Source: Earliella scabrosa
Lineage: Eukaryota > Basidiomycota > Agaricomycetes > Polyporales > Polyporaceae
Length of the DNA stretch: 64,000 bases
Direction of reading: 5' to 3'
Assembly: GCA_022605405.1 (NCBI GenBank)
Contig: JABYQQ010000023.1
Location: forward strand, 434,001-498,000
Part shown: positions 8,125 to 58,124 of the stretch, piece after piece
How the letters are laid out: every line of letters starts with the position of its first letter
Position numbering within the stretch: the stretch's first letter is position 1
Translations under genes and position numbers: made by a program
Notes under the pieces: generated by a model
Told to the model about the DNA's origin: nothing
The model's database searches: none
What the model saw: only the letters and a program-made list of their open reading frames with translations

Positions 8125-8661
8125 TGATGGAGTGAGAACCTGTGAGGCGATGTCGCAAGCGACTAGTAAGTGAGTGGACAGACAAGTCCTCAGTCAGTGA
8201 GTGAAAGACTATATTAGCATAATGCCAAGTACCTAGTAAGTGAGCGGACAGACAAGTCCTCAGTCAGTGAGTGAAAGACTGAGGAGACGAGTCCCAGAGA
8301 GTCCTCCTTATATACCGTACAGGAGCTGCATGAGTAAGCGACAATAAGAAGAGCATGTGATGTGTCTGAGTCAGAGTGAGTCGAGGATGAGTAAGGAGAG
8401 ACGAAGGATGACTCAGACAGAACAAAGGTAACGACAAATGGAGAAAGAAGTATGGTCACAAGGACGACCTAGAGCTGTCTAAGAAGAGTCCGGAGCGTAG
8501 AAGAACGCACTGGAATGGACTGGACAAAAGAGAAGCCTAGTAACTATGTGTATCGTACAACGTATACCTAATATCAAAAGAAAGAAGCACAGCCTATAGA
8601 TCCTATCGTAAGAAGCAGTGCCCATAGCGCCTAATGCGCGTCTATAGTCCATAGTTCAACA
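8125..8661 (-). repeat. copia 3' LTR, with internal duplication
   Basis: 537 bp. It matches the 5' LTR except for an extra copy of the U5 segment that contains AGTCAGTGAGTGAAAGACT, separated by a short new sequence (TATTAGCATAATGCCAAG). Such a duplication would normally be copied to both LTRs at integration, so it arose afterwards or by template switching. Confidence 0.85.
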
Positions 8662-8672
8662 CTCCCACTCGT

Positions 8673-11600: not shown

Positions 11601-12935
11601 AAGCAGAAAGTAGTATAGGTTGTGTGATGCGGCGTAGTGGGCTGTAACCACCTCATTGCCGACAACCTTAACCGTTTTGCCAGATTCGACATAGCCTTCC
11701 GGCCTAGAGTCAAAGATCCTCATATGAGATCCCCCTTGATAGATGAACCCTTTCGCGCGCTCGATGACACCAGTGGAGTAGAGACGGGTATTGCCTGCTG
11801 CTGGAACATAGCAGACATTCTGAAGCGTGAAGGAAACCCGCTTGCCATCCACATAAGTGTATCCTTTGACCGTACCTTCACCGAGTCCTTGGACATGTCC
11901 TTCACTACCTGCCTGGGCGGTGCCAAACAGAACAGGTGTGTCATATGGACGGTACTCAGTGAAGTCCTCTAAGCAACCTGTAACATGTTGAGATGCTCCA
12001 GAATCCATGAGCCAGAGTGTCGTCTGCTCAAGATCCATGCCTTTGGCGCTGTCCGCCTTATAAGCTGAAAAGGAGATCTCGTTGATGGTGCTAGTAGATA
12101 CAGGTACAAAAGCAGCTAGAGTGTGCGCGTGATCATGTCCATTCTGATTCCCAGTTCCACCCGACTGGTTCCCGTTGCCGTTGCCGTTGCCGTTGTCCTT
12201 GCCTTTGCCCTTGTTCCGTTTCGGAGCTTTCTCCGGGAACTTCTTGTAGCAGTTCGACGAGTCATGGTTTGTCTTACCGCAATGCTCGCAAGGGGGCTTG
12301 GGCTTGGACTTCGGCTTCGAGATCTTGTTCGCCTGACTGATCGATGTACCACGGAGGGAGTCCTCGAGCTTGAGTTTCGGCTTAACCTTTTCAAGGGTCA
12401 GGTCCGTCTCAGCCGTGGTGTGGAGGATAGTGGAGATCGATGGGTGATAGGAATCCGGCATCTTGGAGAAGAGCCAGTAGACCTTAATATGCTCGGCGAG
12501 GGTGTTGGTGGAGCCTGTGGTAAGCTCGTTCATCAGCCCGATGAAGGTCTGGACCTGGTCGACGATCGACTTGTTCTCGTTGAAACGAGGGTAGTTGAGA
12601 AGCCGTTCGAAGCGGGAGAAACTGTACCCGTTGTCGGTCTTCTCGTAGGTCGTGTTCAGGGCATCCCAGATCTCCTTCGAGGTGTTCTTCCCTTCATAGC
12701 ACTTGGCTACCTCGGCAGTGGTTTTGTACATGAGGATACCACTTGCCCGGGAATCTCTCTTCTTCCAATCCTTGAGACCAGCCGCATCAGTGGCAGCTGG
12801 TTGACTCTCCGTGCCGCTGACGATATCCCATGCATCGATCATCATGAGATAGCCCTTCATCTGACGAGCCCATTCCTTGTAGCCTTCCTGACCATGGAGC
12901 TGAGGGAGACTCTTTTCCATTCCGGCTTCCGACAT
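8673..12935 (-). CDS. copia Gag-Pol polyprotein (one premature stop)
   Basis: Single-frame copia polyprotein. Domains in order: Gag; zinc knuckle CEHCGKTNHDSSNC (near 12250-12292); aspartic protease WLMDSGASQHV (near 12010); pre-integrase region HRRWGHPG; integrase core with HMDVAGP, SDRGGEY and PQQNGRAERFN (about 11.0-11.4 kb); reverse transcriptase with KARLVARGFTQ, TAFLNGDL and YVDDLLLMG (about 9.6-10.1 kb); and RNase H ending in SSTEAEY and RTKHIEVHYHF. The chosen start is the first in-frame ATG (12935) in a good context (TTCACCATGTC). The frame is also open upstream to 13391 without any ATG. A TAA at 9857-9855 sits where the family has CAA (YM-stop-PEG for YMQPEG), a C to T nonsense. Downstream sequence stays in frame to 8673, so the element is otherwise intact. 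About 1,420 residues would be encoded without the stop. Confidence 0.92.
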
Positions 12936-13391
12936 GGTGAAGGAGTAGATGAAGTCGGTTGAGTCAGGCTGGTTAACGATGAGATCTAGGGCTGATAGAG
13001 GAGGGAGAGTTGGTGTAGGTGTAGGAGGAGAGATGACAATGGAAGGAAGAGGAGTTGGGACAGGAGCTTCCGTAGGATTGTTGAGAATGTCTTCAACTTC
13101 GTGTTCAGACGAAGCAGGGAATGACGAGGATGACGAGGATGTGTCCGGTGTGTTTGGTCGGCAGACTTGACCAGGGGCGACAGCAATATTGCGACGACGA
13201 CGAGTGTAGTTGTCTGGAGGGACTACTTCCGACTCCCGGTTAGGACACGGTTGTCGTTCGCAGTTGTACCACCTTCTGTCTGATTCGTCCCAGTAGGAGT
13301 CCCTGTGGCCAACTGAGTCGTGCCGATGATAGAAGTGACTACAATCAAACGATTCGTCGTCTGATGAAGCCACTGCGTCGATGCGAAAGGT
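12936..13391 (-). other. open N-terminal extension of copia gag without ATG
   Basis: The gag frame stays open for 152 codons upstream of the first ATG, back to a TGA at 13394-13392, yet contains no ATG. It encodes a motif with spacing W-x9-C-x4-C (YWDE, then CERQPCPNR) that is shared with the corresponding extension of the gypsy elements (CGNQPCPNR). The conservation implies translation, from a non-AUG codon or after splicing. Confidence 0.6.
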
Positions 13392-13558: not shown

Positions 13559-13687
13559 GTAAGGAGGGTCCGAACGGTTGTCCTCCGGCTCCAAAGGTGA
13601 TGACACCCCGGATACAACAGCTGGCGGGCGCAAGTGCGTGGCCTGGCTGAGGGATATCCAAAAGACCCGTGTGCCTCGAGAGCACAA
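13559..13687 (-). promoter_or_regulatory. structured leader module shared with gypsy elements
   Basis: On the minus strand this segment aligns with gypsy leader 31035-31163. Positions 13604-13656 are identical over 53 bases to 31066-31118. A hairpin GGTG-TCAT-CACC follows; the gypsy version is GGTG-CTTAA-CACC, with the stem kept and the loop changed. It then continues with GGAGGACAACCG and GGACCCTCCTTAC in both. Role unknown: a translation (IRES-like), packaging or dimerisation signal are candidates. Confidence 0.7.
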
Positions 13688-13880
13688 TAGGTGGTGGAAC
13701 GATACGACGAGCTATGTGACTACTAAAGAGCGCTCAGGGCTGCGTCACGAGCGCAGGAATGTCCCCCTGGCAGCAGTGTCAGCGGGCACAGTCAAGAGCT
13801 AAGGAGTTAGTGGAGGATGTGCACGAGGGTAGAAGTCGTCGGGTGCGCACGATGTGACGACTAGCAACGGTCAGAGCGCA

Positions 13881-13892
13881 GGGCTCATAACC
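13881..13892 (-). promoter_or_regulatory. copia primer-binding site (half tRNA-iMet)
   Basis: Directly next to the 5' LTR the sense strand reads GGTTATGAGCCC. This is the complement of the anticodon stem-loop of eukaryotic initiator tRNA-Met (GGGCTCATAACC). It is the arrangement known from Drosophila copia, where a cleaved half tRNA primes reverse transcription. Confidence 0.75.
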
Positions 13893-14359
13893 TGATGGAG
13901 TGAGAACCTGTGAGGCAATGTCGCAAGCGACTAGTAAGTGAGCGGACAGACAAGTCCTCAGTCAGTGAGTGAAAGACTGAGGAGACGAGTCCCAGAGAGT
14001 CCTCCTTATATACCGTACAGGAGCTGCATGAGTAAGCGACAATAAGAAGAGCATGTGATGTGTCTGAGTCAGAGTGAGTCGAGGATGAGTAAGGAGAGAC
14101 GAAGGATGACTCAGACAGAACAAAGGTAACGACAAATGGAGAAAGAAGTATGGTCACAAGGACGACCTAGAGCTGTCTAAGAAGAGTCCGGAGCGTAGAA
14201 GAACGCACTGGAATAGACTGGACAAAAGAGAAGCCTAGTAATCATGTGTATCGTACAACGTATACCTAATATGGAAAGAAAGAAGCACAGCCTATAGATC
14301 CTATCGTAAGAAGCAGTGCCCATAGCGCCTAATGCACGTCAATAGTCCATAGTTCAACA
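13893..14359 (-). repeat. copia 5' LTR with promoter
   Basis: 467 bp; the sense strand begins TGTTGAAC and ends CTCCATCA. It has a TATA box (sense TATATAAGG, T at 14010) and a predicted transcription start at the A of CCTCAGTC (13978), 32 nt downstream. The same TATA-to-CAG spacing recurs in the other LTR families of this window. Confidence 0.85.
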
Positions 14360-14364
14360 CCCCG

Positions 14365-17300
14365 GGTATTGATTGGGCGCAGACTCATTCTTTGTAGCGT
14401 CTGTGCCAAACCATGGTAATCAACAGAGCGGCCCCAGATATTGATTGGGGGTGTACCAATTATTTGTAGCGGCCACGCCAGACTGTGGTAATCAATGGAG
14501 CGCGTAGGTCATAGCGATTGCGTAGGTCATAGCGATTGGGGGTGTACTAATTATTTGTAGCCGCCGCGCCAGACCGCAGTAATCAGTGGAGCACGTAGGC
14601 CGTAGGGGTTGCGTAAGTCATAGCGATCGGGGGTGGACTAATTATTTGTAGCGGCCGTGCCAGACCGTGGTAATCGATCGAGCGCGTAGGTCGTAGCGAT
14701 TGCGTAGGTCATAGTGATTGGGGGTGTACTAATTATTGCGAGATGAAAGCAGAAGCGGGGGATTAATATAGAGTGGTGATACTATCGATAAACCATCAAA
14801 CATGAGGAATCAAGAAACTTCCATCAGGATCTGCGGGTCCAACATCAGAACTGGACTGAAACAGAACGTGTGAAGCTTGCAAATGAGCGCAGAAGAGACC
14901 AACCAAGAAAGTGGTAGCGCGTAGGTCGTAGCGATTGCGTAGGTCATAGCGATCGGGGGCGTACTCATTATTTGTAGCGGCCGCGCCAGGCCGTGGTAAT
15001 CAATCGAGCGCATAGGTCGTAGCGATTGCGTAGGTCATAGTGATTGGGGGTGTACTAATTATTGCGAGATGAAAGCAGAAGCGGGGGATTAATATAGAGT
15101 GGTGATACTATCGATAAACCATCAAACATGAGGAATCAAGAAACTTCCGTCAGGATCTGCGGGTCCAACATCAGAACTGGACTGAAACAGAACGTGTGAA
15201 GCTTACAAATGAGCGCAGAAGAGACCAACCAAGAAAGTGGTAGCGCGTAGGTCGTAGCGATTGCGTAGGTCATAGCGATCGGGGGCGTACTCATTATTTG
15301 TAGCTGCCGCGCCAGACCATGGTAATCAATCGAGCGCATAGGTCGTAGCAATTGTGTAGGTCATAGCGATTGGGGGTGTACTCATTATTTGCAGCGGCCC
15401 CGCAAGACCGTGGTAATCAATGGAGCGCGTAGGTCGTAGCGATTGCGTAGGTCATAGCGATTGGGGGTGTACTAATTATTGCGAGATGAAAGCAGAAGCG
15501 GGGGATTAATATAGAGCGGTGATACTATCGATAAACCATCAAACATGAGGAATCAAGAAACTTCCGTCAGGATCTGCGGGTCCAACATCAGAACTGGACT
15601 GAAACAGAACGCGTGAACCTTGCAAATGAGCGCAGAAGAGACCAACCAAGAAAGTGGTAGCGCGTAGGTCGTAGCGATTGCGTAGGTCATAGCGATCGGG
15701 GGTGTACTTATTATTTGTAGCCGCCGCGCCAGGCCGTGATAATCAATCGAGCGCGTAGACAGAACTGGACTGAAACAGAACGCGTGAACCTTGCAAATGA
15801 GCGCAGAAGAGACCAACCAAGAAAGTGGTAGCGCGTAGGTCGTAGCGATTGCGTAGGTCATAGCGATCGGGGGCGTACTCATTATTTGTAGCGGCCGCGC
15901 CAGGCCGTGGTAATCAATCGAGCGCATAGGTCGTAGCGATTGCGTAGGTCATAGTGATTGGGGGTGTACTAATTATTGCGAGATGAAAGCAGAAGCGGGG
16001 GATTAATATAGAGTGGTGATACTATCGATAAACCATCAAACATGAGGAATCAAGAAACTTCCGTCAGGATCTGCGGGTCCAACATCAGAACTGGACTGAA
16101 ACAGAACGTGTGAAGCTTACAAATGAGCGCAGAAGAGACCAACCAAGAAAGTGGTAGCGCGTAGGTCGTAGCGATTGCGTAGGTCATAGCGATCGGGGGC
16201 GTACTCATTATTTGTAGCTGCCGCGCCAGACCATGGTAATCAATCGAGCGCATAGGTCGTAGCAATTGTGTAGGTCATAGCGATTGGGGGTGTACTCATT
16301 ATTTGCAGCGGCCCCGCAAGACCGTGGTAATCAATGGAGCGCGTAGGTCGTAGCGATTGCGTAGGTCATAGCGATTGGGGGTGTACTAATTATTGCGAGA
16401 TGAAAGCAGAAGCGGGGGATTAATATAGAGCGGTGATACTATCGATAAACCATCAAACATGAGGAATCAAGAAACTTCCGTCAGGATCTGCGGGTCCAAC
16501 ATCAGAACTGGACTGAAACAGAACGCGTGAACCTTGCAAATGAGCGCAGAAGAGACCAACCAAGAAAGTGGTAGCGCGTAGGTCGTAGCGATTGCGTAGG
16601 TCATAGCGATCGGGGGTGTACTTATTATTTGTAGCCGCCGCGCCAGGCCGTGATAATCAATCGAGCGCGTAGACAGAACTGGACTGAAACAGAACGCGTG
16701 AACCTTGCAAATGAGCGCAGAAGAGACCAACCAAGAAAGTGGTAGCGCGTAGGTCGTAGCGATTGCGTAGGTCATAGCGATCGGGGGCGTACTCATTATT
16801 TGTAGCGGCCGCGCCAGGCCGTGGTAATCAATCGAGCGCATAGGTCGTAGCGATTGCGTAGGTCATAGTGATTGGGGGTGTACTAATTATTGCGAGATGA
16901 AAGCAGAAGCGGGGGATTAATATAGAGTGGTGATACTATCGATAAACCATCAAACATGAGGAATCAAGAAACTTCCGTCAGGATCTGCGGGTCCAACATC
17001 AGAACTGGACTGAAACAGAACGCGTGAACCTTGCAAATGAGCGCAGAAGAGACCAACCAAGAAAGTGGTAGCGCGTAGGTCGTAGCGATTGCGTAGGTCA
17101 TAGCGATCGGGGGCGTACTCATTATTTGTAGCGGCCGCGCCAGGCCGTGGTAATCAATCGAGCGCATAGGTCGTAGCGATTGCGTAGATCATAGCGATCG
17201 GGGGTGGACTAATTATTTGTAGCCGCCGCGCCAGACCGCGGTAATCAATCGAGCGCGTAGGTCATAGCGATTGCGTAGGTCATAGCGATTGGGGGTGTAC

Positions 17301-17760
17301 TCATTATTTGTAGCTGCCGCGCCAGACCATGGTAATCAATCGAGCGCATAGGTCGTAGCAATTGTGTAGGTCATAGCGATTGGGGGTGTACTCATTATTT
17401 GCAGCGGCCCCGCAAGACCGTGGTAATCAATGGAGCGCGTAGGTCGTAGCGATTGCGTAGGTCATAGCGATTGGGGGTGTACTAATTATTGCGAGATGAA
17501 AGCAGAAGCGGGGGATTAATATAGAGCGGTGATACTATCGATAAACCATCAAACATGAGGAATCAAGAAACTTCCGTCAGGATCTGCGGGTCCAACATCA
17601 GAACTGGACTGAAACAGAACGCGTGAACCTTGCAAATGAGCGCAGAAGAGACCAACCAAGAACGTGGTAGCGCGTCGGTCGTAGCGATTGCGTAGGTCAT
17701 AGCGATTGGGGGTGTACTCATTATGTGTAGCCGCCGCGCCAGGCCGTGGTAATCAATGGA
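14365..17760 (-). repeat. satellite arm 1 (91-bp unit, minus orientation)
   Basis: Tandem repeats of a 91-bp unit (sense words GATTACC, GGTCTGGCGCGGCC, GCTACAAATAATGAG, TACACCCCCAATC, CTATGACCTACGC), here in reverse orientation. A variant of 109 bp carries an extra 18-bp CCTACGCAATYGC subrepeat. Units are interrupted at intervals by a module of about 190 bp (TTGCAAGGTTCACGCG, CAGATCCTGACGGAAG, TTATCGATAGTATCACC). The recurring minus-strand frames (MRSIDYHGLAR) are repeat artefacts. Confidence 0.9.
14873..16700 (-). repeat. 914-bp higher-order repeat, two tandem copies plus partial third
   Basis: Positions 14873-15786 and 15787-16700 correspond at an offset of exactly 914 bp and share idiosyncratic variants (for example a truncated unit ending CGCGTAGACAGAACTGG). 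A third partial copy runs to about 17000. I saw no differences between the first two copies when reading them side by side. Confidence 0.8.
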
Positions 17761-17925
17761 GCGTACATCGTGGAGAGGTGTGAAACCAGAGGTATGATGG
17801 GTGCAAGGAACTTCTGAGGTTGGAATGGTGGTTCCAGCACCATGGAGAAGTGTGAAACCAGCGGTATGATGAATGACACAAGAGCCCCATCCTTGTCACA
17901 CCAGTATGCCCCCAATTGCTACAAA
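17761..17925. repeat. palindrome centre, spacer type 1
   Basis: About 165 bp separating the minus-oriented arm from the plus-oriented arm. It contains two copies of GTGTGAAACCAG(A/C)GGTATGATG about 80 bp apart. A nearly identical spacer lies at 23247-23400, again at an orientation switch. Confidence 0.75.
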
Positions 17926-20900
17926 CTACACGCTCCATTGATTACCATGGTCTGGCATGGCCGCTACAAATAATGCGTGCACCGCCGATCACTATGATCT
18001 ACGCAACCGCTACGACCGACGTGCTCCATTGATTACCGCGGTCTGGCGCGGCGGCTACAAATAATGAGTACACCCCCAATCGGTATGACCTACGCAATCG
18101 CCATGGCCTACGCAATCGCTACGGCCCGCGTGCTCCACTGATTACCGTGGTCTGGCGCGGCCGCTACAAATAATTAGTCCACCCCCGATCGCTATGACCT
18201 ACGCAATCGCTACGACCTACGCGCTCCATTGATTACCACGGTCTTGCGGGGCCGCTGCAAATAATGAGTACACCCCCAATCGCTATGACCTACACAATTG
18301 CTACGACCTATGCGCTCGATTGATTACCATGGTCTGGCGCGGCAGCTACAAATAATGAGTACACCCCCAATCGCTATGACCTACGCAATCGCTACGACCT
18401 ACGCGCTCGATTGATTACCGCGGTCTGGCGCGGCGGCTACAAATAATGAGTACACCCCCAATCGGTATGACCTACGCAATTGCCATGGCCTACGCAATCG
18501 CTACGGCCCGCGTGCTCCACTGATTACCGTGGTCTGGCGCGGCCGCTACAAATAATGAGTACACCCCCAATCGCTATGACCTACGCAATCGCTACGACCT
18601 ACGCGCTCGATTGATTACCGCGGTCTGGCGCGGCGGCTACAAATAATGAGTACACCCCCAATCGGTATGACCTACGCAATTGCCATGGCCTACGCAATCG
18701 CTACGGCCTACGTGCTCCACTGATTACCACGGCCTGGCGCGGCCGCTACAAATAATGAGTACACCCCCAATCGCTATGACCTACGGAATCGCTACAACCT
18801 ACGTGCTCCACTGATTACCGCGGTCTGGCGCGGCCGCTACAAATAATTAGTCCACCCCCGATCGCCATGACCTACGCAATTGCTACGACCTATGCGCTCG
18901 ATTGATTACCACGGAAGCCTAGGCTATGGCTGTTTGTATAGCATCATTGAAGAGAAGAAACAGCCAGAGAATGACAAAGAAACAAACAATGCCAGCTATG
19001 ACCATGATGAGGAGTTTGTCAGAGAGTTTGGCAGAGAGGTTGACGAGGGTGGCATTAAATTCACGTTCAACCCACCCCCCTCACGCTATATGGCCAATGT
19101 GGACATGAGGAAACCAGATATGTCAATGACTGCCTCCACATCTGAGTCTGCCAGTAAGTCAGCTTACCTATGCGCTCTGTTGATTACCACGGCCTGGCGC
19201 GGCCGCTACAAATAATGAGTATGCCCCCAATCAGTATGACCTACGCAATCGCCATGGCCTACGCAATCGCTACGGCCCGCGTGCTCCACTGATTACCACG
19301 GCCTGGCGCGGCCGCTACAAATAATGAGTACACCCCCAATCGCTATGACCTACGGAATCGCTACAACCTACGCGCTCCACTGATTACAGCGGTCTGGCGC
19401 GGCGGCTACAAATAATGAGTACACCCCCAATCGCTATGACCTACGCAATCGCTACGACCGACGCGCTACCACGTTCTTGGTTGGTCTCTTCTGCGCTCAT
19501 TTGCAAGGTTCACACGTTCTGTTTCAGTCCAGTTCTGATGTTGAACCCGCAGATCCTGACGGAAGTTTCTTGATTCCTCATGTTTGATGGTTTATCGATA
19601 GTATCACCGCTCTATATTAATCCCCCGCTTCTGCTTTCATCTCGCAATAATTAGTACACCCCCAATCGCTATGACCTACGCAATAGCTACGACCTACGCG
19701 CTCCATTGATTACCACGGTCTGGCGCGGCCGCTACAAATAATGAGTATGCCCCCAATCAGTATGACCTACACAATCGCCATGACCTACGCAATTGCTACG
19801 GCCCGCGTGCTCCACTGATTACCGCGGTCTGGCGCGGCGGCTACAAATAATTACTCCACCCCCGATCGATATGACCTACGCAATCGCTACGATCTACGCG
19901 CTCGATTGAGTACCGCGGTCTGGCGCGGCGGCTACAAATAATGAGTACACCCCCAATCGCTATGACCTACGCAATCGCTACGATCTACGCGCTCGATTGA
20001 TTATCACGGCCTGGCGCGGCGGCTACAAATAATAAGTACACCCCCGATCGCTATGACCTACGCAATCGCTACGACCTACGCGCTACCACTTTCTTGGTTG
20101 GTCTCTTCTGCGCTCATTTGCAAGGTTCACGCGTTCTGTTTCAGTCCAGTTCTGATGTTGGACCCGCAGATCCTGACGGAAGTTTCTTGATTCCTCATGT
20201 TTGATGGTTTATCGATAGTATCACCACTCTATATTAATCCCCCGCTTCTGCTTTCATCTCGCAATAATTAGTACACCCCCAATCGCTATGACCTACGCAA
20301 TCGCTACGACCTACGCGCTCCATTGATTACCACGGTCTGGCGTGGCCGCTACAAATAATGAGCGTGCCCCCAATCGCTATGACCTACGCAATCGCTACGA
20401 TCTACGCGCTCGATTGATTATCACGGCCTGGCGCGGCGGCTACAAATAATGAGTACACCCCCGATCGCTATGACCTACCCAATCGCTACGACCGACGCGC
20501 TACCACTTTCTTGGTTGGTCTCTTCTGCGCTCATTTGCCAGGTTCACGCGTTCTGTTTCAGCCCAGTTCTGATGTTGGACCCGCAGATCCTGACGGAAGT
20601 TTCTTGATTCCTCATGTTTGATGGTTTATCGATAGTACCACCGCTCTATATTAATCCCCCGCTTCTGCTTTCATCTCGCAATAATTAGTACACCCCCAAT
20701 CGCTTTGACCTACGCAATCGCTACGACCTACGCGCTCCATTGATTACCACGGTCTGGCGTGGCCGCTACAAATAATGAGTGTGCCCCCAATCGCTATGAC
20801 CTACGCAATCGCTACGATCTACGCGCTCGATTGATTACCACGGCCTGGCGCGGCGGCTACACATAATGAGTACACCCCCAATCGCTATGACCTACGCAAC

Positions 20901-20936
20901 CGCTACGACCGACGCGCTCCATTGATTACCACGGTC
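17926..20936 (+). repeat. satellite arm 2 (91-bp unit, plus orientation)
   Basis: The same 91-bp unit and 190-bp module as arm 1 but in the opposite orientation, so 14.4-20.9 kb is a giant imperfect palindrome. Unit starts at 18231, 18322 and 18413 give the 91-bp period. It is interrupted by a non-satellite insert at 18911-19160. Confidence 0.9.
18911..19160 (+). pseudogene. gene fragment captured in the satellite
   Basis: About 240 bp of non-repeat sequence between two satellite units. One frame is open throughout and looks protein-like (segments EEFVREFGREVDEGG and PPPSRYMANVDMRKP, then SASTSES-type residues). It ends in a consensus 5' splice site (GCCA then GTAAGT at about 19152). No start and no family recognised. 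Most simply it is an exon and the beginning of its intron, trapped during array rearrangement. Confidence 0.45.
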
Positions 20937-22296
20937 TGGCGCGGCCACTACAAATAATGAGCGTGCCCCCAATCACTACAATCTACACACTCTGTTGATT
21001 ACCACAGTCTGGCGCGGCCACTACAAAGAATTAGTGTGCACCCACTACGGAGAATGAGTACGCACTCACTACAAATAATTAGTACACACGCAACTGCTAT
21101 GACCTACACGCTCTATTGATTACGGTGGTGTGGCACGGCCGCTACAAATGATTAGTCTGCACCCAATGAATATCCGGGGCTTGCTTTATTGATTTCTATG
21201 AACTAGCACGGCCGCTACAAACAATTAGTTGCAAGCGAAGCGAGCATACCCCATGCGCATTGACCGGACCCACCTTGCAGGGGACAAACAAGGACAAATT
21301 GTCCGAGTGCAGTGAATTTTAGCGCTTGAGACTCGCTACTTGACCCACCAGCCACTGCTTCCATGAACCCCTCTACATCTCGAGATACATGCTCGTACAC
21401 ATTATAGGCTCAATTATGGTAGTTTTTGTGAAGAACGGGTAGCTCAGTGAAGAGGAGTCTGCTCACCACTACCCGACACCACAACCACAGCGAACAAGGG
21501 CCCAGATGCATGTGGTCTCAGGCGTAGCAAGCAACACCGTCCTAACGGAGACCAGTATGCACCCGTTCTTTGTGGATTGTGATCATCTGGGGTCAGAGTT
21601 TGTGTGTCACGCACGAGGGTCGAATGTTGAACTTGAACGCCAGATGATGTGTGGTTTGGTTTGGTTTGAGGTTGACGTAGAGTCAGCACCGGGGTGGTTG
21701 TGTGGTAGTTGTGTGCATGGTGTGCATGTGGGTGCAAGCGGAAAAGCGGTCTCGACGGGCAATCATGCATCATGTCAGCGTACGCGGGTAGTGTGGTGCA
21801 CAGACATTAAATTAGGTTTAGAGCGAGTCTGAAGGAGCCGAGGATTGCACTTGTCCGGATGGTGGATTTGAATTGTCTGCACGGCGACGAGTTTGTAGTT
21901 GCAAGACATTAGCCGTGATCAACAATGTTCTTCCTGTATACAACGGTAATTTACAGGTGCAGCTTGATCGGGGTTTGCAGAAATCAACGGAAGCCTAGAA
22001 CTTGAGTATATTATGCTCTCAATCACTATATAATATGTGCTCTATTGATGATGGTGGTCTGGCACGGCCGCTACAAATGATTAGTGTGCACCCAATCACT
22101 CCCTGGGGCTTGATCGATTGATTACTACAGTCTGGTGTGACCACTACAAATGATTACCATGCTCCCAATCAATATCCGGGGCTCGCTCTATGGATTGCTA
22201 CGGTCTGGCGCGACCAGTACAAATGATTACTATGCACCCAATCACTACCCGGGGCTCGCTCAATGGATTACTTTGGTCTGGCACTGTTGCTACAAA
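20937..22296 (+). repeat. satellite-related block, right copy (duplicate of 3541-4909)
   Basis: Direct repeat of the left block at an offset of 17,387 bp, apparently identical from about 20982. It lacks the transposons that later entered the left copy, so it shows their empty target sites. The unique core (21215-22020) has no recognisable gene. Confidence 0.85.
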
Positions 22297-25010
22297 TGGT
22301 TAGTACACCCCCAATGGCTACGGCCTACACGCTCCATTGATTACCACGGTCTGGTGCGGCCGCTACGGATAATTAGTACACACCCACTTGCTACGACCTA
22401 CGCGCTCTGTTGATTACCACGGTCTGGCGCGCCCGCTAGAAATAATGAGCGTGCCCCCGATCACTATGACCTACGCAATCGCTACGACCTACGCGCTACG
22501 GCTTTTTTTGGTTGGTCTCTTTACCATAGTAATCAATATAGCGAGCCCCAGGTATTGATTGGGGGCCAACTAATTATTTGGAGTGGCTGTGGCAGACCGT
22601 GGTAACCAATGCAGCACATATTATGTAGTGATTGGGAGCATACTGGTTGTTTGTGGCAGCCCTGCCAGACTGTAGTAATAAATGGAGCGAGCCCCGGGTA
22701 TTGATTGGGCGCAGACTCATTCTTTGTAGTGTCTGTGCCAGACCATGGTAATCAACAGAGCGGGCCCGGATATTAATTGGGGGTGTACAAATTATTTGTA
22801 GCGGCCACACCAGACCATGATAATCAATGGAGCGCGTAGGTCGTAGGGGTTGCGCAGGTCATAGCGATTGGGGGTGTACTAATTATTTGTAGCCGCCGCA
22901 CCAGACTGCGGTCATCAGTGGAGCACGTAGGTCGTAGCGATTGCGTAGATCATAGTGATTGGGGGTGTACTAATTATTGCGAGATGAAAGCAGAAGCGGG
23001 GGATTAATATAGAGCGGTGATACTATCGATAAACCATCAAACATGAGGAATCAAGAAACTTCCATCAGGATCTGCGGGTCCAACATCAGAACTGGACTGA
23101 AACAGAACGTGTGAAGCTTGCAAATGAGCGCAGAAGAGACCAACCAAGAAAGTGGTAGCGCGTAGGTCGTAGCGATTGCGTAGGTCATATCGATTGGGGG
23201 CACACTCATTATTTGTAGCGGCCGCGCCAGGCCGTGGTAATCAATGGAGCGCACATCGTCGAGAGGTGTGAAACCAGAGGTATGATGGGTGCAAGGAACT
23301 TCTGAGGTTGGAATGGTGGTTCCAGCACCATGGAGAAGTGTGAAACCAGCGGTATGATGAATGACACAAGAGCTCCATCCTTGTCACACCAGTATGCCCC
23401 CAATTGCTACAAACTACACGCTCCATTGATTACCATGGTCTGGCATGGCCGCTACAAATAATGAGTACACCGCCAATCACTATGATGTACGCAACCGCTA
23501 CGACCGACGCGCTCCATTGATTACCACGGTCTGGCACAGCCGCTACAAATAATGAGTGTGCCCCCAACCGCTATGACCTACGCAATCGCTACGACCTACG
23601 CGCTACCACTTTCTTGGTTGGTCTCTTCTGCGCTCATTTGCAAGCTTCACACGTTCTGTTTCAGTCCAGTTCTGATGTTGGACCCGCAGATCCTGATGGA
23701 AGTTTCTTGATTCCTCATGTTTGATGGTTTATCGATAGTATCACCGCTCTATATTAATCCCCCGCTTCTGCTTTCATCTCGCAATAATTAGTACACCCCC
23801 AATCACTATGATCTACGCAATCGCTACGACCTACGTGCTCCACTGATTACCGCAGTCTGGTGCGGCGGCTACAAATAATTAGTACACCCCCAATCGCTAT
23901 GACCTGCGCAACCCCTACGACCTACGCGCTCCATTGATTATCATGGTCTGGTGTGGCCGCTACAAATAATTTGTACACCCCCAATTAATATCCGGGCCCG
24001 CTCTGTTGATTACCATGGTCTGGCACAGAAACTACAAAGAATGAGTCTGCGCCCAATCAATACCCGGGGCTCGCTCCATTTATTACTACAGTCTGGCAGG
24101 GCTGCCACAAACAACCAGTATGCTCCCAATCACTACATAATATGTGCTGCATTGGTTACCACGGTCTGCCACAGCCACTCCAAATAATTAGTTGGCCCCC
24201 AATCAATACCTGGGGCTCGCTATATTGATTACTATGGTGAAGAGACCAAAAAGCCGTAGCGCGTAGGTCGTAGCGATTGCGTAGGTCATAGTGATCGGGG
24301 GCACACTCATTATTTGTAGCGGCCACGCCAGCCTGTGGTAATCAACAGAGCGTGTAGGTCATAGTGATTGGGGACACACTCATTATCTGTAGCGGCCACG
24401 CCAGACCGCGGTAATCAATGGAGTGCTTAGGTCTTAGCAAGTGGGTGTGTACTAATCATTTGTAGTGTCTGCACCAGACCGTGGTAATCAATGGAGCGTG
24501 TAGGCCGTAGCGATTGAAGGTGTACTAATTATTTCTAGCGGGCCGGCCAGACCGTGGTAATCAATGGAACACGTAGGTCGTAGCAATTGCATAGGTCATA
24601 GCCATTGGGGGTGTACTCATTATTTTTATCGGCCGCGCCGGACCGTGGTAATCAATGGAGCGCGTCGGTCGTAGCGGTTGCGTGTAGGTCATAACGATTG
24701 GGGGTGTACTAATTATTGCGAAATGAAAGCAGAAGCGGGGGATTAATATAGAGCGGTGGTACTATCGATAAACCATCAAACATGAGGAATCAAGAAACTT
24801 CCGTCAGGATCTGCGGGTCCAACATCAGAACTGGACTGAAACAGAACATGTGAAGCTTGCAAATGAGCGCAGAAGAGACCAACCAAGAAAGTTGTAGCGC
24901 GTAGGTCGTAGTGATTGGGGGCACGCTCATTATTTGTAGCGGCCACGCCAGACCGTGGTAATCAATGGAGCGCGTAGGTTGTAGCGATTGGGTAGATCAC
25001 AGCGATTGGG
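22297..25010. repeat. alternating inverted satellite segments
   Basis: Satellite units run plus (22297-22500), minus (22510-23245), plus (23400-24240) and minus (24250-25010). The switches at about 22505 and 24245 share the junction sequence TTGGTTGGTCTCTTYACC or its complement. The switch at 23247-23400 uses spacer type 1. The arms 22505-23245 and 23480-24250 form an inverted repeat of about 700 bp. Frames called here are repeat shadows. Confidence 0.8.
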
Positions 25011-25656
25011 GGTGTCGTAGACCCGTCACAGTACAGGCTTGAGTGCTGTTTGCACTCATAATATTTTGAGGCGGCCACCTGAGATGATAGTTGACTGAAA
25101 AGTGTGAAGCAAGAGAACAGACAAAGGGGGAACAGAAGGGGGAAGCAGAAGAAGGGAGCAGAGCTACTCGGAGTCTCTGCTCAAAGCGCCAATATCCTGC
25201 GCCACATCTAAATATGTACAAACAAATGACTTCGCACATCCTTTCCCTAAGTATGCCCAATTCCGCTGAGTCTGGTGGAGTCTATTGGTTAGTACTGGAA
25301 CACAACATGTGCTCGGATTGTGCAACTAGATCGCCATAGTCGTAAGTGCGCATTCATGTGGGGTTTAGACTTGCGCACACCCATCAGCAGCAGTTGGGCA
25401 CTCCAGCCTCTCATTTGTGTCTGTGGGCCTTGTGCTTGACCAGCATAGAGAGGTCCGGTGCTAGCATCTGGCCCTGTCGTCTCTGCTCCGTGTTTGCTCT
25501 GTGTGGGATATTGCAGAGATTCGCGTAGATTCATTGAGGTAGCAGACCATCAGACATGCACTCGACACGCATCAGTGGAACCAGTGATGCGTGTGAATAA
25601 ATGAGAGCATAGACGCCAAACATTAGTCCTTGATTTGCGCACAATTCCTCTGATTC
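25011..25656. other. unassigned region left of the coiled-coil gene
   Basis: Single-copy sequence of about 650 bp with no recognisable coding motif. It may contain the left end and upstream exons of the Harbinger element, but I see no inverted repeat that proves it. Confidence 0.3.
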
Positions 25657-30473: not shown

Positions 30474-30478
30474 TCGAC
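30474..30478. other. target-site duplication of gypsy IIa (left)
   Basis: TCGAC precedes the LTR (TGTCACGAAC) and recurs at 43268-43272 after the right LTR, so the whole 12.8-kb block entered as one unit that later received gypsy IIb. Confidence 0.9.
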
Positions 30479-30926
30479 TGTCACGAACGGTCCCTCAGCG
30501 TCTAGGGAAGCGCCCAACTAACCACCGTTCACGACCGTTCACTGTTTCCATTGTTCGCTATCACCATTGTACTTCCAGATTCCAGAGCCCCTTTTGTTTC
30601 TTTTCCTTTGTTCCGGACACAATTGTCGTCATACCATTGTATCTCCTCCATTGTTCCGTCACACTATTGTTCTATTGTTCTCCAAGCGCTATTGTTCTAA
30701 CCGTAGATATAAACCCTAGCACTCGCTACCTGGAGACCTCAGTTTCGACCTCTTGTCTCCAGGTAAGCCTCACTTGTATTTCACTTGTAGATACTTCGCT
30801 CAATACAACTTGTCTCCAGCCCTGTGTGTCGAGCCTTGCTCCACTCTCGCTGCACAAGCGCTCGTCGGACGCCCTCGCTCACCTCGTCGTTCCCTCCTCG
30901 TCTCGCTTGACCCCCAGGTCGCGACA
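30479..30926 (+). repeat. gypsy IIa 5' LTR with promoter
   Basis: TG...CA termini. TATA box TATAAA at 30708 and a predicted start at A30741 (CCTCAGTTTCG), 33 nt downstream. R begins with the 11-nt self-primer AGTTTCGACCT. The possible intron GTAAGC...TTGTAG just after it is only 30 nt, so probably not spliced. Confidence 0.9.
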
Positions 30927-30928
30927 TT

Positions 30929-30939
30929 AGGTCGAAACT
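30929..30939 (+). promoter_or_regulatory. self-priming primer-binding site
   Basis: AGGTCGAAACT, two bases after the LTR, is exactly complementary to the first 11 nt of the predicted transcript (30741-30751, AGTTTCGACCT). Complementarity stops at both ends. This is the Tf1/sushi self-priming arrangement. It is the same in IIb (36209-36219) and III (52636-52646). Confidence 0.85.
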
Positions 30940-31034
30940 CCTTGCGAGCGCCGGCGTGTAACTCACACTCCCTCTGAGGTAACGCGCGCCCTACGATACA
31001 TACCACGGTCTCTAGTAACTAGCATTGTGAACCT

Positions 31035-31163
31035 TTTGTGCTCGAGAGGCATCTGGGTTTTCAAGTATCCCTCAGCCAGGCCACGCACTTGCGCCCGCCA
31101 GCTGTTGTATCCGGGGTGCTTAACACCTTAGGAACGGAGGACAACCGTGTGGACCCTCCTTAC
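31035..31163 (+). promoter_or_regulatory. structured leader module shared with copia
   Basis: About 129 nt of the gypsy leader aligns with the copia leader (13687-13559). The 53 nt at 31066-31118 are identical. The hairpin GGTG-CTTAA-CACC (31115-31127) keeps its stem but not its loop in copia. The module is repeated in gypsy IIb (from about 36315) and III (from about 52742). Confidence 0.7.
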
Positions 31164-31184
31164 CTACCTCTTTTACTTTGCTAG

Positions 31185-31811
31185 TTTCTCGTACGATACT
31201 CGGGCGCGCACACCTCTCTTCCTCACTTCATCGTGGCTTGCTGGGGACTCCTCCACGCGTACCACCCAGGGGAGCAGCGCGACGTTCATTGGTCTAGCGC
31301 GGAAAAGACCTTTAAGGTCTGTGGCAATCAGCCGTGCCCAAACCGCGGCAGGGCAGCACCCCAACAGACCCTCACAGAACACGGACTCGAAAGGTGTACC
31401 GAGCATAACGCCAACGTTATCCGGGCAATCTTTGACCTCCCGGTAACACAGCCGATCACCCGTACCACCTCCCGTCCACCCAGTCGCGTTCCTAGTCGCG
31501 CCAACACTCCTCCTACCCCTACCACTGTCCTTCCCGGAGTTGCGCTTGTTGCCCAACGCTTACAAGAGCGGCGCGCATCCTCTCCGGCCCCAACCACAGC
31601 AGTTGCAGGACCAAGTCGGACCGCTGAAGAACCCGCAACCACTGTCATCCTTAACTCCCCGCCTGCCAAACCCGTTCGATCCGAACGTCTCCCCTCACCC
31701 ACCACAACGCAGCCTCCGCCACAGGTTGCTCAACCCACGCCACAGGTCGCACAACCTGTACAAACCGTCGCACAGGTAGCCGTACCTGCCCAATCCTCCC
31801 AATCCTCCACC
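31185..31811 (+). other. open N-terminal extension of gypsy gag without ATG
   Basis: The gag frame is open for 209 codons upstream of its first ATG (31812), back to TAG at 31182, with no ATG in it. It encodes WSSAEKTFKVCGNQPCPNRG followed by a proline/threonine-rich linker. The indel that distinguishes IIb here is 6 bp and several substitutions are synonymous, so the frame looks protein-coding. Confidence 0.6.
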
Positions 31812-32606
31812 ATGTCTGGCTCCATCCCGGACTCGCTGGTCAAGCTGCTCGCTCCTGAGCCATACCATGGCAAGGATCCTGTCGCCGCTCTCGCCTTCCT
31901 GTCGCGAGCAAAGGCGTTCTTCGACAACCTCCCCACCGCGGTCACAAGAGACCTGAAATTCCAGATGATTCTGGGTTTCCTCAAAGACGACGTGGCAGTC
32001 TGGGCCTTGCCCTACTACGCACAGCTGGGAGGCTCTTCGCCTTGCTGGGCCGACTTCGCAGCTTTCGAGACGGACTTCAAAGCCCACTTCTGTGCGGTCG
32101 ACGACAAGGCCTCCGCCTACGAAGAACTCCGGCAGCTCAATCGAGGGGCCCAGCGTCCCAAGATGGCCACCGTCAAGGAGTGGACGGCCAAGTTCACCGC
32201 GATTGCCGCTCGGACAGGCCTTGGAGAGGAGGACAAGCGCATGCGCTATCGAGATGGCCTCCCCGAGCAGTTGCGCACCGCCCTCATCACCAGTGGGCGT
32301 GACGTCTCGACCTTTGCCAAGATGCAGAAGGAGGCCCTCGAGATCAGCCAGGGCCTCGCGTCCATCGAGGCCAGCAAGTTCCGTCCCTTCAAAGGGAAAG
32401 GCAAGGAACAAGTCGCTGGTGCAAGCACCGACCAGCAACCGGAGACCCGCACGTGCTTCAAGTGCGGGAAACCGGGGCACATTGCACGCAACTGCAAGGC
32501 CAATAAAATCTCCGCCGCTCAGTTTGAGCAGATGGAGGCCAAGATGAAGCAGCTGCAGGAACAGCTGGCCTCTGTGAAAGCGGCAGAGAAGACAGAGGAT
32601 TTTTGA
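31812..32606 (+). CDS. gypsy IIa Gag
   Basis: Capsid-like Gag of a Ty3/gypsy element, 264 residues from the first ATG (context CTCCACCATGTCT). The capsid region includes LAPEPYHGKDP, FFDNLPTA, WALPYYAQLGG and ADFAAFETDFKAHF. A single zinc knuckle CFKCGKPGHIARNC lies near 32455-32500, and a C-terminal helix follows (QMEAKMKQLQEQLASVK). It ends GAG GAT TTT TGA. The stop overlaps pol, which lies in the -1 frame. The three Gag copies in the window are nearly identical; IIa and III differ only at the residue after CKA (N or K). Confidence 0.9.
   Translation: MSGSIPDSLVKLLAPEPYHGKDPVAALAFLSRAKAFFDNLPTAVTRDLKFQMILGFLKDDVAVWALPYYAQLGGSSPCWADFAAFETDFKAHFCAVDDKASAYEELRQLNRGAQRPKMATVKEWTAKFTAIAARTGLGEEDKRMRYRDGLPEQLRTALITSGRDVSTFAKMQKEALEISQGLASIEASKFRPFKGKGKEQVAGASTDQQPETRTCFKCGKPGHIARNCKANKISAAQFEQMEAKMKQLQEQLASVKAAEKTEDF
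32597..32606 (+). promoter_or_regulatory. putative -1 frameshift site gag/pol
   Basis: The run GATTTTTGA lets the Phe-tRNA on TTT slip back one base just before the TGA stop. The next codons (TTG ATC CGG) are the first of pol. The site is identical in all three gypsy copies (37889 and 54304 regions), and pol has no ATG of its own there. Confidence 0.55.
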
Positions 32607-35600: not shown

Positions 35601-35754
35601 TCAATCAGGAAGTAGAGGCGTACTTGCGAGCGTTCTGCAGTCAGCGACGAGATGACTGGGTCAAATGGCTCCCCATTGCAGAGTATGCACTCAACGCCAG
35701 AGTTCACTCGTCAACGGGTTACTCCCCCTTCTTCCTGATGTACGGATACGAACC
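32603..35754 (+). CDS. gypsy IIa Pol, N-terminal part (protease-RT-RNase H-integrase)
   Basis: Pol in the -1 frame to gag; the first codon is TTG, so it is probably made by frameshifting. Domains: aspartic protease MVDSGATTTFLSRRF (about 32770); reverse transcriptase LDIRWGYNNIRI and IYLDDILIFS (33790-34010); RNase H EVDTSGYATGG and SDHKNLEYW (34420-34660); integrase zinc finger (HH...CDTC, 35090-35220); integrase core MADRHGKLVH, ISDRGPQF and AYHPQTDGQSERFNQE (35350-35610). At GYEPQ the frame meets the LTR of gypsy IIb (35760). The displaced C-terminus is at 42162-42793. The gene is therefore broken by nesting, not by mutation. Confidence 0.92.
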
Positions 35755-35759
35755 GCAAT

Positions 35760-36206
35760 TGTCACGAACGATCCCTCAGCGCCTAGGGAAGCGCCCAACT
35801 AACCACCGTTCACGACCGTTCACTGTTTCCATTGTTCGCTATCACCATTGTACTTCCAGATTCCAGAGCCCCTTTTGTTTCTTTTCCTTTGTTCCGGACA
35901 CAATTGTCGTCATACCATTGTATCTCCTCCATTGTTCCGTCACTCTATTGTTCTATTGTTCTCCAAGCGCTATTGTTCTAACTGTAGATATAAACCCTAG
36001 CACTCGCTACCTGGAGACCTCAGTTTCGACCTCTTGTCTCCAGGTAAGCCTCACTTGTATTTCACTTGTAGATACTTCGCTCAATACAACTTGTCTCCAG
36101 CCCTGCGTGTCGAGCCTTGCTCCACTCTCGCTGCACAAGCGCTCGTCGGACGCCCTCGCTCGCCTCGTCGTTCCCTCCTTGTCTCGCTTGACCCCAGGTC
36201 GCGACA
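35760..36206 (+). repeat. gypsy IIb 5' LTR
   Basis: 447 bp, identical to 41710-42156. Predicted transcript start at A36022. Confidence 0.9.
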
Positions 36207-37097
36207 TTAGGTCGAAACTCCTTGCGAGCGCCGGCGTGTAACTCACACTCCCTCTGAGGTAACGCGCGCCCTACGATACATACCACGGTCTCTAGTAACT
36301 AGCATTGTGAACCTTTTGTGCTCGAGAGGCATCTGGGTTTTCAAGTATCCCTCAGCCAGGCCACGCACTTGCGCCCGCCAGCTGTTGTATCCGGGGTGCT
36401 TAACACCTTAGGAACGGAGGACAACCGTGTGGACCCTCCTTACCTACCTCTTTTACTTTGCTAGTTTCTCGTACGATACTCGGGCGCGCACACCTCTCTT
36501 CCCCTCCCTCACTTCATCGTGGCTTGCCGGGGACTCCTCCACGCGTACCACCCAGGGGAGCAGCGCGACGTTCATTGGTCTAGCGCGGAAAAGACCTTTA
36601 AGGTCTGTGGCAATCAGCCGTGCCCGAACCGCGGCAGGGCAGCACCCCAACAGACCCTCACAGAACACGAACTCGAAAGGTGCACCGAGCATAACGCCAA
36701 CGTTATCCGGGCAATCTTTGACCTCCCGGTAACACAGCCGATCACCCGTACCACCTCCCGTCCACCCAGTCGCGTTCCTAGTCGCGCCAACACTCCTCCT
36801 ACCCCTACCACTGTCCTTCCCGGAGTTGCGCTTGTCGCCCAACGCTTACAAGAGCGGCGCGCATCCTCTCCGGGCCCAACCACAGCAGTTGCAGGACCAA
36901 GTCGGACCACCGAAGAGCCCGCAACCACTGTCATCCTTAACTCCCCGCCTGCCAAACCCGTTCGATCCGAACGTCCCCCTTCACCCACCACAACGCAGCC
37001 TCCGCCACAGGTTGCTCAACCCACGCCGCAGGTCGCACAACCTGTATCCACCGTCGCACCAGTAGCCGTACCGGTCCAAACCTCCCAATCCTCCACC

Positions 37098-37898
37098 ATG
37101 TCGGGCTCCACTACCATTCCTGACTCCCTGGTCAAGCTACTCGCTCCGGAGTCGTACCATGGCAAAGACCCCATCGCCGCTCTCGCCTTCCTCTCGCGAT
37201 CAAAGGCGTTCTTCGACAACCTCCCCACCGCGGTCACGAATGACCTGAAATTCCAGATGATTCTGGGTTTTCTCAAGGACGACGCGGCAGTCTGGGCTCT
37301 GCCCTACTACGCGCAGCTGGGGGGCTCTCAACCCTGCTGGGCTGACTTCGCGGCTTTCGAAACGGACTTCAAAGCCCACTTCTGTGCGGTCGACGACAAG
37401 GCCTCTGCCTACGAAGAACTCCGGCAGCTCAATCGAGGGGCCCAGCGTCCCAAGATGGCCACCGTCAAGGAGTGGACGGCCAAGTTCACCACGATTGCCG
37501 CTCGGACAGGCCTTGGAGAGGAGGACAAGCGCATGCGCTATCGAGATGGCCTCCCCGAGCAGTTGCGCACCGCCCTCATCACCAGTGGGCGTGACGTCTC
37601 GACCTTTGCCAAGATGCAGAAGGAGGCCCTCGAGATCAGCCAGGGCCTCGCGTCCATCGAGGCCAGCAAGTTCCGTCCCTTCAAAGGGAAAGGCAAGGAA
37701 CAAGTCGCTGGTGCAAGCACCGACCAGCAACCGGAGACCCGCACGTGCTTCAAGTGCGGGAAACCGGGGCACATTGCACGCAACTGCAAGGCCAAGAAAA
37801 TCTCCGCCGCTCAGTTTGAGCAGATGGAGGCCAAGATGAAGCAGCTGCAGGAACAGCTGGCCTCTGTGAAAGCGGCAGAGAAGACGGAGGATTTTTGA
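37098..37898 (+). CDS. gypsy IIb Gag
   Basis: Gag of the intact element, 266 residues from ATG 37098 (CTCCACCATGTCG). It differs from IIa mainly near the start (a two-residue insertion TT after MSGS) and by scattered substitutions. The capsid core, zinc knuckle CFKCGKPGHIARNC (37746-37790) and terminal helix are conserved. The frame is open upstream to about 36471 without ATG and includes the CGNQPCPNRG motif. It ends in the GAT TTT TGA frameshift context. Confidence 0.9.
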   Translation: MSGSTTIPDSLVKLLAPESYHGKDPIAALAFLSRSKAFFDNLPTAVTNDLKFQMILGFLKDDAAVWALPYYAQLGGSQPCWADFAAFETDFKAHFCAVDDKASAYEELRQLNRGAQRPKMATVKEWTAKFTTIAARTGLGEEDKRMRYRDGLPEQLRTALITSGRDVSTFAKMQKEALEISQGLASIEASKFRPFKGKGKEQVAGASTDQQPETRTCFKCGKPGHIARNCKAKKISAAQFEQMEAKMKQLQEQLASVKAAEKTEDF

Positions 37899-41683: not shown

Positions 41684-41709
41684 GGACATGAGCCTTAGGA
41701 GGGGGGTAC

Positions 41710-42156: not shown

Positions 42157-42161
42157 GCAAT

Positions 42162-42793: not shown

Positions 42794-42819
42794 GGACATG
42801 AGCCTTAGGAGGGGGGTAC

Positions 42820-52198: not shown

Positions 52199-52203
52199 AG
52201 GGT

Positions 52204-52633: not shown

Positions 52634-53518
52634 TTAGGTCGAAACTCCTTGCGAGCGCCGGCGTGTAACTCACACTCCCTCTGAGGTAACGCGCGCCCTA
52701 CGATACATACCACGGTCTCTAGTAACTAGCATTGTGAACCTTTTGTGCTCGAGAGGCATCTGGGTTTTCAAGTATCCCTCAGCCAGGCCACGCACTTGCG
52801 CCCGCCAGCTGTTGTATCCGGGGTGCTTAACACCTTAGGAACGGAGGACAACCGTGTGGACCCTCCTTACCTACCTCTTTTACTTTGCTAGTTTCTCGTA
52901 CGATACTCGGGCGCGCACACCTCTCTTCCTCACTTCATCGTGGCTTGCTGGGGACTCCTCCACGCGTACCACCCAGGGGAGCAGCGCGACGTTCATTGGT
53001 CTAGCGCGGAAAAGACCTTTAAGGTCTGTGGCAATCAGCCGTGCCCAAACCGCGGCAGGGCAGCACCCCAACAGACCCTCACAGAACACGGACTCGAAAG
53101 GTGTACCGAGCATAACGCCAACGTTATCCGGGCAATCTTTGACCTCCCGGTAACACAGCCGATCACCCGTACCACCTCCCGTCCACCCAGTCGCGTTCCT
53201 AGTCGCGCCAACACTCCTCCTACCCCTACCACTGTCCTTCCCGGAGTTGCGCTTGTTGCCCAACGCTTACAAGAGCGGCGCGCATCCTCTCCGGCCCCAA
53301 CCACAGCAGTTGCAGGACCAAGTCGGACCGCTGAAGAACCCGCAACCACTGTCATCCTTAACTCCCCGCCTGCCAAACCCGTTCGATCCGAACGTCTCCC
53401 CTCACCCACCACAACGCAGCCTCCGCCACAGGTTGCTCAACCCACGCCACAGGTCGCACAACCTGTACAAACCGTCGCACAGGTAGCCGTACCTGCCCAA
53501 TCCTCCCAATCCTCCACC

Positions 53519-58098: not shown

Positions 58099-58124
58099 GG
58101 ACATGAGCCTTAGGAGGGGGGTAC

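Follow-up and report, generated by a model that had tools for sequence, protein, structure and literature searches.

The window analysed here is a 64,000-nt stretch of the Earliella scabrosa genome (contig JABYQQ010000023.1, positions 434,001 to 498,000). It contains LTR retrotransposons of two superfamilies whose leaders carry a common module. The element on the minus strand, Copia B, encodes a Retrotran_gag_2 domain and an integrase located before RVT_2 (Pfam), the order expected of Copia. The elements on the plus strand, Gypsy A, contain RVT_1, RNase H and rve domains (Pfam), and a chromodomain was found in the pol ORF of the second copy. With reverse transcriptase, RNase H, integrase and chromodomain, family A is a chromodomain Gypsy, and the assignment of the two elements to different superfamilies in the preliminary description is borne out. 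The labels A, B and C used throughout follow the module variant. Gypsy A occurs as tandem arrays with common LTRs at 30477-43268 and 52203-58571 of the window, with LTR copies near 30477, 35760, 41710, 42820, 52204 and 58125. These arrays look like products of recombination between LTRs or cDNA copies. The region between the Copia element and the Gypsy array (14360-25015) is densely filled with nested direct and inverted repeats, ranging from tens of nucleotides to about 1500 nt and, among the matches listed, about 72-99% identical. The features discussed below are collected in Table 1.

Table 1. Leader and Gag features of the Copia B and Gypsy A elements in the window.
Feature	Position	Strand	Remarks
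5' LTR of Copia B	13931..14363	-	3' LTR at 8233-8666, 98% identical
GGTTATGAGCCCTG, Copia primer-binding-site-like sequence	13878..13891	-	
Block 2 of the Copia leader	13751..13780	-	72 copies, each 124-127 nt upstream of a different module
Leader RNA module, Copia B copy	13559..13686	-	13559-13687 in the preliminary description
Candidate Copia B Gag extension	12936..13373	-	146 codons, no Met; candidate start GTG 13373
First Copia B ATG after the primer-site uORF, gag frame	12933..12935	-	context TTCACCATGT, 22/22
5' LTR of Gypsy A copy 1	30479..30926	+	
AGTTTCGACCT in the Gypsy A 5' LTR	30741..30751	+	complement of 30929-30939, 11 nt
Leader RNA module, Gypsy A copy 1	31037..31163	+	31035-31163 in the preliminary description
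Candidate Gypsy A Gag extension	31233..31811	+	193 codons, no Met; candidate start GTG 31233
First ATG of Gypsy A after the 5' LTR start, gag frame	31812..31814	+	context CCACCATGTC, 14/14
Leader RNA module, Gypsy A copy 2	36317..36443	+	
Leader RNA module, Gypsy A copy 3	52744..52870	+	

A match of about 130 nt between the Copia and Gypsy leaders had been described, and alignment reproduces it in all its parts. Positions 13687-13559 (minus strand) align with 31035-31163 (plus strand), 129 nt each, including a run of 53 identical bases (13656-13604 and 31066-31118). By our estimate, chance falls far short of explaining an identity of this length between two 1-kb segments. One hairpin stem is kept while its loop changes (GGTG-TCAT-CACC versus GGTG-CTTAA-CACC), CGGAGGACAACCG and GGACCCTCCTTAC are common to the Copia and Gypsy modules, and the module is repeated in the other two Gypsy copies. 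Local alignment of the two leaders covers 136 columns and reaches no further than the module edges. Outside the module, the leaders of A and B have only short matches at chance level.

The 51.7-Mb assembly of this one genome was searched with a 30-nt piece of the module, allowing up to three mismatches. This yielded 99 places, and a 29-nt piece from the 3' part of the module was located at 98 places genome-wide; the reversed 30-nt pattern, used as a control, gave 0. The sequence context was taken for 78 of the 99 places, resulting in 75 distinct contexts: 22 of Gypsy A, 23 of the Copia B of the window, and 30 of a second Copia family, C. The placement of C in Copia rests solely on its 32-33% gag match and on RVT_2 matches downstream of its modules. 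Gag proteins of B and C are 28-36% identical, mostly 32-33%, and the module stretch has a DNA identity of 86% between A and B and 91% between A and C. A matching gag is located about 1.2 kb or less downstream in 70 of the 75 contexts, among the matches listed. The five contexts with no match to their own gag listed within about 1.2 kb (L020 first site, L056, L064, L065 minus, and L071 first site) are cut, interrupted, or have only their best match listed; they were placed by module type, block 2 or an A-like peptide. Copia B and C together account for 72 modules, each with the Copia leader sequence block 2 upstream at the distance given in Table 1, and each of the other 27, those of Gypsy A, has an A-like Gag peptide within 500 nt. 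Thus, all 99 modules are located in leaders of these families.

This distribution bears on the possibility that the module is a small independent transposon inserted in both leaders, as raised in the preliminary description, or else a fragment of coding sequence. The abrupt end of the similarity between A and B at the module edges would fit such an origin, but no copy was found outside these leaders at the sensitivity used, Copia B and C also share the surrounding leader, and one extra base in C puts its module out of the frame shared by A and B. An independent transposon or fragment is therefore an extremely improbable explanation. No host gene with the module and no free-standing module copy was found in the genome (30-mer, up to three mismatches), and the module was not found in five module-lacking families examined, one Gypsy and four Copia. 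A coding function of the module itself was rejected: A and B have a common open frame across the module, with two compensating 1-nt gaps, but C holds both bases and is out of frame. Judged from its sequence, the module is almost certainly a non-coding element common to these families. In IMG/VR, neither a 21-mer of the module nor a 22-base pattern of its 3' part had any match, and protein relatives were not found in viral and prokaryote collections. Four actinomycete sequences matching the 21-mer contain no other part of the module and were taken as unrelated.

For the analyses of intact copies (start codons, gaps and variable sites), 13 of the 75 contexts were left out (7 A, 1 B, and 5 C), being interrupted, cut or decayed; some were picked for holding ATGs in the stretch before gag. 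In the comparison of the commonest modules, 3 of the 75 were dropped as interrupted or cut. Among intact copies, the module varies at 8/128 sites in A, 0/128 in B, and 5/128 in C, as opposed to 74/181, 47/190, and 13/50 for third codon positions downstream of the gag ATG (Fisher test, 6e-13, 2e-12, and 5e-5, respectively). Compared with the stretch between module and candidate Gag start, its variation is lower in family B (p 9e-7) and in family A (p 0.048); in C, no reduction relative to the leader downstream of the module is seen (p 0.2). With decayed copies included, the A module varies at 25/129 sites.

Within the 53-nt core, the commonest C module differs from A and B at two positions only. 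These two positions pair with each other, exchanging A-U for U-A in the stem CAGC/GCUG. The three-tier stem that includes CAGC/GCUG has a pair probability of at least 0.83 in A, B and C, and across 25 distinct modules 98% of the cells pair, compared with 15-52% when the strands are slid by 1-3 columns. The folding energy is not below that of shuffled sequences (z 0.43, -0.83, and 0.57). Since this energy is ordinary and the covariation amounts to one pair and one inherited event, the case for structure is moderate. No Rfam covariance model matched the module at E up to 1, with one window stretch of A and one locus each of A, B and C as queries. Of the functional RNA suggested in the preliminary description, the conserved non-coding leader element in two superfamilies stands, with its low variation and one compensatory change; the folding argument is the weaker part.

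The leaders around the module differ in their priming sites. In Gypsy A, the sequence directly after the LTR (30929-30939) is complementary to AGTTTCGACCT inside the LTR, which starts about 30 nt after a TATAAA box; this box is present in three of four Gypsy A copies inspected. We take the 11-nt LTR complement to be a putative Tf1-like self-priming arrangement. Copia B carries GGTTATGAGCCCTG behind its LTR, presumably a primer site of the initiator-tRNA-half type. The ATG in GGTTATGAGCCCTG opens a uORF of 5 codons and is the sole ATG from the TATA box to the first gag ATG in this copy. GGTTATGAGCCC is found close behind the LTR in Copia B and C, and also in all four module-lacking Copia loci examined. 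Block 2 is exact over its 30 nt in 71 of the 72 copies, contains a hairpin-like CTGCG/CGCAG, and is specific to Copia B and C, with none at the 27 Gypsy A modules. The representatives of B and C have a leader in common from about -328 to +159 at 78% identity, block 2 included. The portion of the A leader in common with Copia extends from about -36 to +106 only.

Whether the module was exchanged between the superfamilies or independently retained had been left open in the preliminary description. Retention looks unlikely, because the five module-lacking families examined have no copy of it and A possesses only part of the conserved Copia leader, and exchange rather than common descent is the likely reading. 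The direction from Copia to Gypsy is favoured on sequence grounds, as Gypsy A lacks the other conserved blocks of the Copia leader and carries a subset of it.

In most contexts, the region between the module and the first gag ATG is devoid of ATG codons. Measured from the start of the core in one representative each, the first downstream ATG is found at +745 (A), +720 (B), and +810 (C). It is always in the gag frame, which is open from +118, +264, and +264, respectively. Considering all frames, the ATG-free stretch is 1334 nt in A, 952 nt in B, and 1053 nt in C (again one representative each). Dinucleotide shuffles of these stretches contain 6.8, 8.4, and 8.5 ATGs on average, and 1, 0, and 0 shuffles per 1000 contain none; the triplet CAT occurs 14, 25, and 17 times in the same stretches. 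In the full set of 75 contexts, 62 are ATG-free from before the module to near the first gag ATG, 10 hold at least one ATG, and 3 are cut, so that the ATG desert is kept in 62 of 72 informative contexts. Several of the ten are clearly broken (e.g., L047, L050, and L071 first site); L022 has an ATG in the desert though its gag frame is still open, and L012 has one ATG ahead of the candidate start. These counts were made on all 75 contexts and not on the intact copies, which are no test of the desert because some contexts had been dropped for holding desert ATGs.

The desert starts with the LTR in A and after the primer-site uORF in B and C. Two further B copies and one C copy have 3-4 uATGs upstream of the module, including one uORF of more than 50 codons; hence, only A is AUG-free from the LTR onward. 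In four of the five module-lacking families, the gag ATG follows 12-42 nt after the opening of the frame, and the 950 nt upstream, which may include untranscribed DNA, contain 7-11 ATGs. The module-lacking Copia locus L084 has 288 nt of gag frame with no in-frame ATG (1593-1881) and 12 ATGs upstream, and its gag homology begins ahead of the first in-frame ATG. An AUG-less opening of gag may therefore not need the module.

Between a candidate near-cognate start and the first gag ATG lie 438-579 nt of open gag frame. In the aligned intact copies, the near-cognate codon is conserved as GTG in A (14/14), GTG in B (22/22), and TTG in C (25/25). All three have a purine at -3 and a G at +4, with A at -3 in family A and A or G at -3 in family B. 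The distance from module to start is about 69 nt in A, 185 nt in B, and 176 nt in C. The stretch from start to ATG shows a coding pattern of change: variable sites at codon positions 1, 2, and 3 number 23/21/68 in A, 24/22/45 in B, and 28/13/43 in C among intact copies. Among the gaps listed, those between candidate start and ATG are 3, 6 or 9 nt long, and those before the start are 1, 2, and 5 nt, with one of 6 nt in A. The ratio of non-synonymous to synonymous changes, decayed copies included, is 0.91, 1.30, and 1.26, compared with an expected 2.34-2.45, indicating an excess of silent changes. These patterns make it very probable that the stretch is translated as an N-terminal extension of Gag. 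Coding evolution ahead of the first ATG implies that Gag must start at a non-AUG codon, a conclusion held with high confidence.

The conventional start could nevertheless be the only one, with Gag beginning at the first AUG after a long AUG-free leader and the preceding open frame untranslated. In each of the three families, the context of the first gag ATG is strong (mainly TCAATCATGG in C), and the public Gag cluster P0001 with its 168 members starts there. Exclusive use of this AUG fails to explain the codon-position bias, the triplet indels and the peptide conservation across families ahead of it, and is very improbable. A hidden intron that brings an AUG from elsewhere would likewise restore a conventional start, and a GTAAG donor-like site exists in the A LTR. 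On the other side, the A representative has no ATG from the start of the 5' LTR to the first in-frame ATG, and no ATG-creating splice junction was found in any of the three representatives for the intron types scanned (GTRNG-type donors, YAG acceptors, 40-900 nt). The chance of such an intron is slight. Within the Gypsy A LTR (30750-30830), a donor-like GTAAGC and an acceptor-like CTCCAG are located less than 60 nt apart; this pair is possibly a short leader intron, itself free of any ATG.

The predicted extensions of the three representatives comprise 518 residues and 0 methionines. A motif C-x3-P-C-P-[NH]-R is common to both superfamilies. When a 53-residue piece of A was used in a six-frame search of the genome, 29 A-like places were found first, followed by 22 places that all belong to Copia B, with 41-42% identity and E of 0.003-0.04. 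Of these 51 matches, 49 have a module no more than 1.5 kb upstream; the remaining two are A-like. A corresponding search with a B piece gave B, C and A places only, all 75 downstream of a module within this distance. Equally good peptide similarity was obtained in 0/2000 shuffles for A versus B and B versus C; similarity of A to C is weak, partly reflects a proline-rich composition, and was equalled by 8/2000 shuffles. The net charge is -11 in B and -25 in C, which are acidic, and +7 in A. By hydropathy, no membrane-spanning stretch was found in the extensions (maximum over 19 residues 0.53-1.02). Pfam gave no match to the A and B extensions, PDB none to the A piece, and a region-limited protein search none to the B extension. 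An alignment search of public proteins matched three ORFs, known as protein only. One of them, P0005, begins at the position of the B start and runs via the extension into Gag at 84% identity, with its first codon not recorded; a C-like ORF is 54% identical.

Based on these sequences, we tentatively propose, at somewhat less than even confidence, that a 5' cassette common to Gypsy A and to the distantly related Copia families B and C was exchanged once between the superfamilies, and that it directs dual initiation of Gag with the module in a translational role. The cassette would consist of the module, a leader of about 69-185 nt, the non-AUG Gag start, an extension of 146-193 residues with the cysteine motif and a Pro/Ser/Thr-rich linker, and the conventional Gag AUG in its strong context. 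Some ribosomes would start at the near-cognate codon and produce a long Gag, and most would scan past it to the first AUG and produce normal Gag. Such leaky scanning to the conventional AUG is likely. The transfer between Copia and Gypsy most likely happened long ago, probably by template switching. The module would face the host machinery and promote non-AUG translation through ribosome entry or retention. That the module is mainly translational is a tentative assignment: it is accompanied by the unusual start in all three families, and a host machine as its partner would make exchange between superfamilies easier to understand, but the varying module-to-start distance and the L084 locus count against this role.

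Alternatively, the module could be a packaging or dimerisation signal of the genomic RNA, recognised with the help of the co-transferred Gag extension. Its position between primer site and gag suits this function, as do the link of module and Cys-motif peptide in all three families and a CTCGAG palindrome in or at the loop of hairpin 1, kept in 67 of the 75 contexts (A 17/22, B 23/23, and C 27/30). The palindrome is short, though, and Pfam places the main Gag bodies of Copia and Gypsy in different families. The acidic B and C extensions are poor RNA binders by charge, which makes simple binding of RNA by this peptide less plausible. As an explanation of the module, packaging is rather unlikely. 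A narrower version, in which module RNA and Gag extension form a matched, portable recognition pair and low-level long Gag from the non-AUG start binds the module, is unlikely as well. If true, Copia and Gypsy elements would share a packaging code, enter each other's particles and recombine there, and the cassette would be both cause and product of superfamily exchange.

The module could also bind another host factor acting in nuclear export, RNA stability or escape from silencing, with its nearness to the non-AUG start being incidental. The constitutive transport elements of simple retroviruses are an analogue. Conservation of sequence rather than of structure alone, the different module-to-start distances, and the ease with which a host partner would allow superfamily exchange agree with this. 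The absence of an Rfam match and of a host copy of the 30-mer (up to three mismatches) does not, and the joint occurrence of peptide and AUG desert would be left unexplained; binding of such a factor is a doubtful account.

If exchange and dual initiation hold, expression and RNA-handling signals of LTR elements would prove able to move as modules, uncoupled from the polymerase lineages on which their classification is based. Neither feature was found for fungal retrotransposons in titles and abstract openings of the open-licence literature, which is weak evidence of absence. Gags annotated from the AUG, such as P0001, would then miss 146-193 N-terminal residues.

The proposed dual initiation resembles several known systems. 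Ty1 is a retrotransposon with a long and a short Gag, the short form being produced from an internal RNA. The elements described here would also have both forms, and differ in that long Gag would be the unusual product, requiring a non-AUG start. The glyco-Gag of the gammaretrovirus MLV starts at a CUG codon in a favourable context upstream of the Gag start and in frame with it, and its extension accounts for 6.7% of gag translation, giving a low-level extended product beside normal Gag (PMC5778647). An in-frame extension translated from a near-cognate codon, the mark of glyco-Gag dual initiation, is likewise indicated here, on the strength of sequence evolution only. Unlike glyco-Gag, the present extensions occur in Copia and Gypsy elements and have no membrane-spanning stretch, AUG is absent from all frames between the two starts, and an RNA module is shared upstream.

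RTBV uses an AUU start taken by about 10% of ribosomes, followed by leaky scanning over 900 nt free of AUG (PMC5902531). The present elements match this layout, with a predicted non-AUG start followed by hundreds of AUG-free nucleotides. RTBV, as described there, expresses distinct ORFs once ribosomes have shunted past a structure in the leader (PMC5902531), whereas here one gag frame would have two starts, and the Gypsy A leader is free of any ATG. The pararetroviral shunt layout, a short uORF that stops right before a large stem, is not seen with the module as that stem in the B and C representatives, in which the primer-site uORF stops at -218 and -229, nearly 200 nt before the module. Ribosome shunting was rejected as a common mechanism because Gypsy A has no uORF.

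Self-priming has been described for retrotransposons (PMC2864245). In Tf1-like elements, the 5' end of the RNA is complementary to the site after the 5' LTR, and the complement in the Gypsy A LTR may be of this kind. The module that A has in common with Copia lies apart from its putative priming site, and the primer sites of Copia B and C are of the tRNA type. Copia B and C resemble other Copia elements in carrying GGTTATGAGCCC. Unlike these, they also possess an extended, conserved leader that contains the module, and a candidate non-AUG Gag start. In L083, a locus of a Copia family, the first ATG in the gag frame is the ATG within the primer-binding-site sequence (1573-1600).
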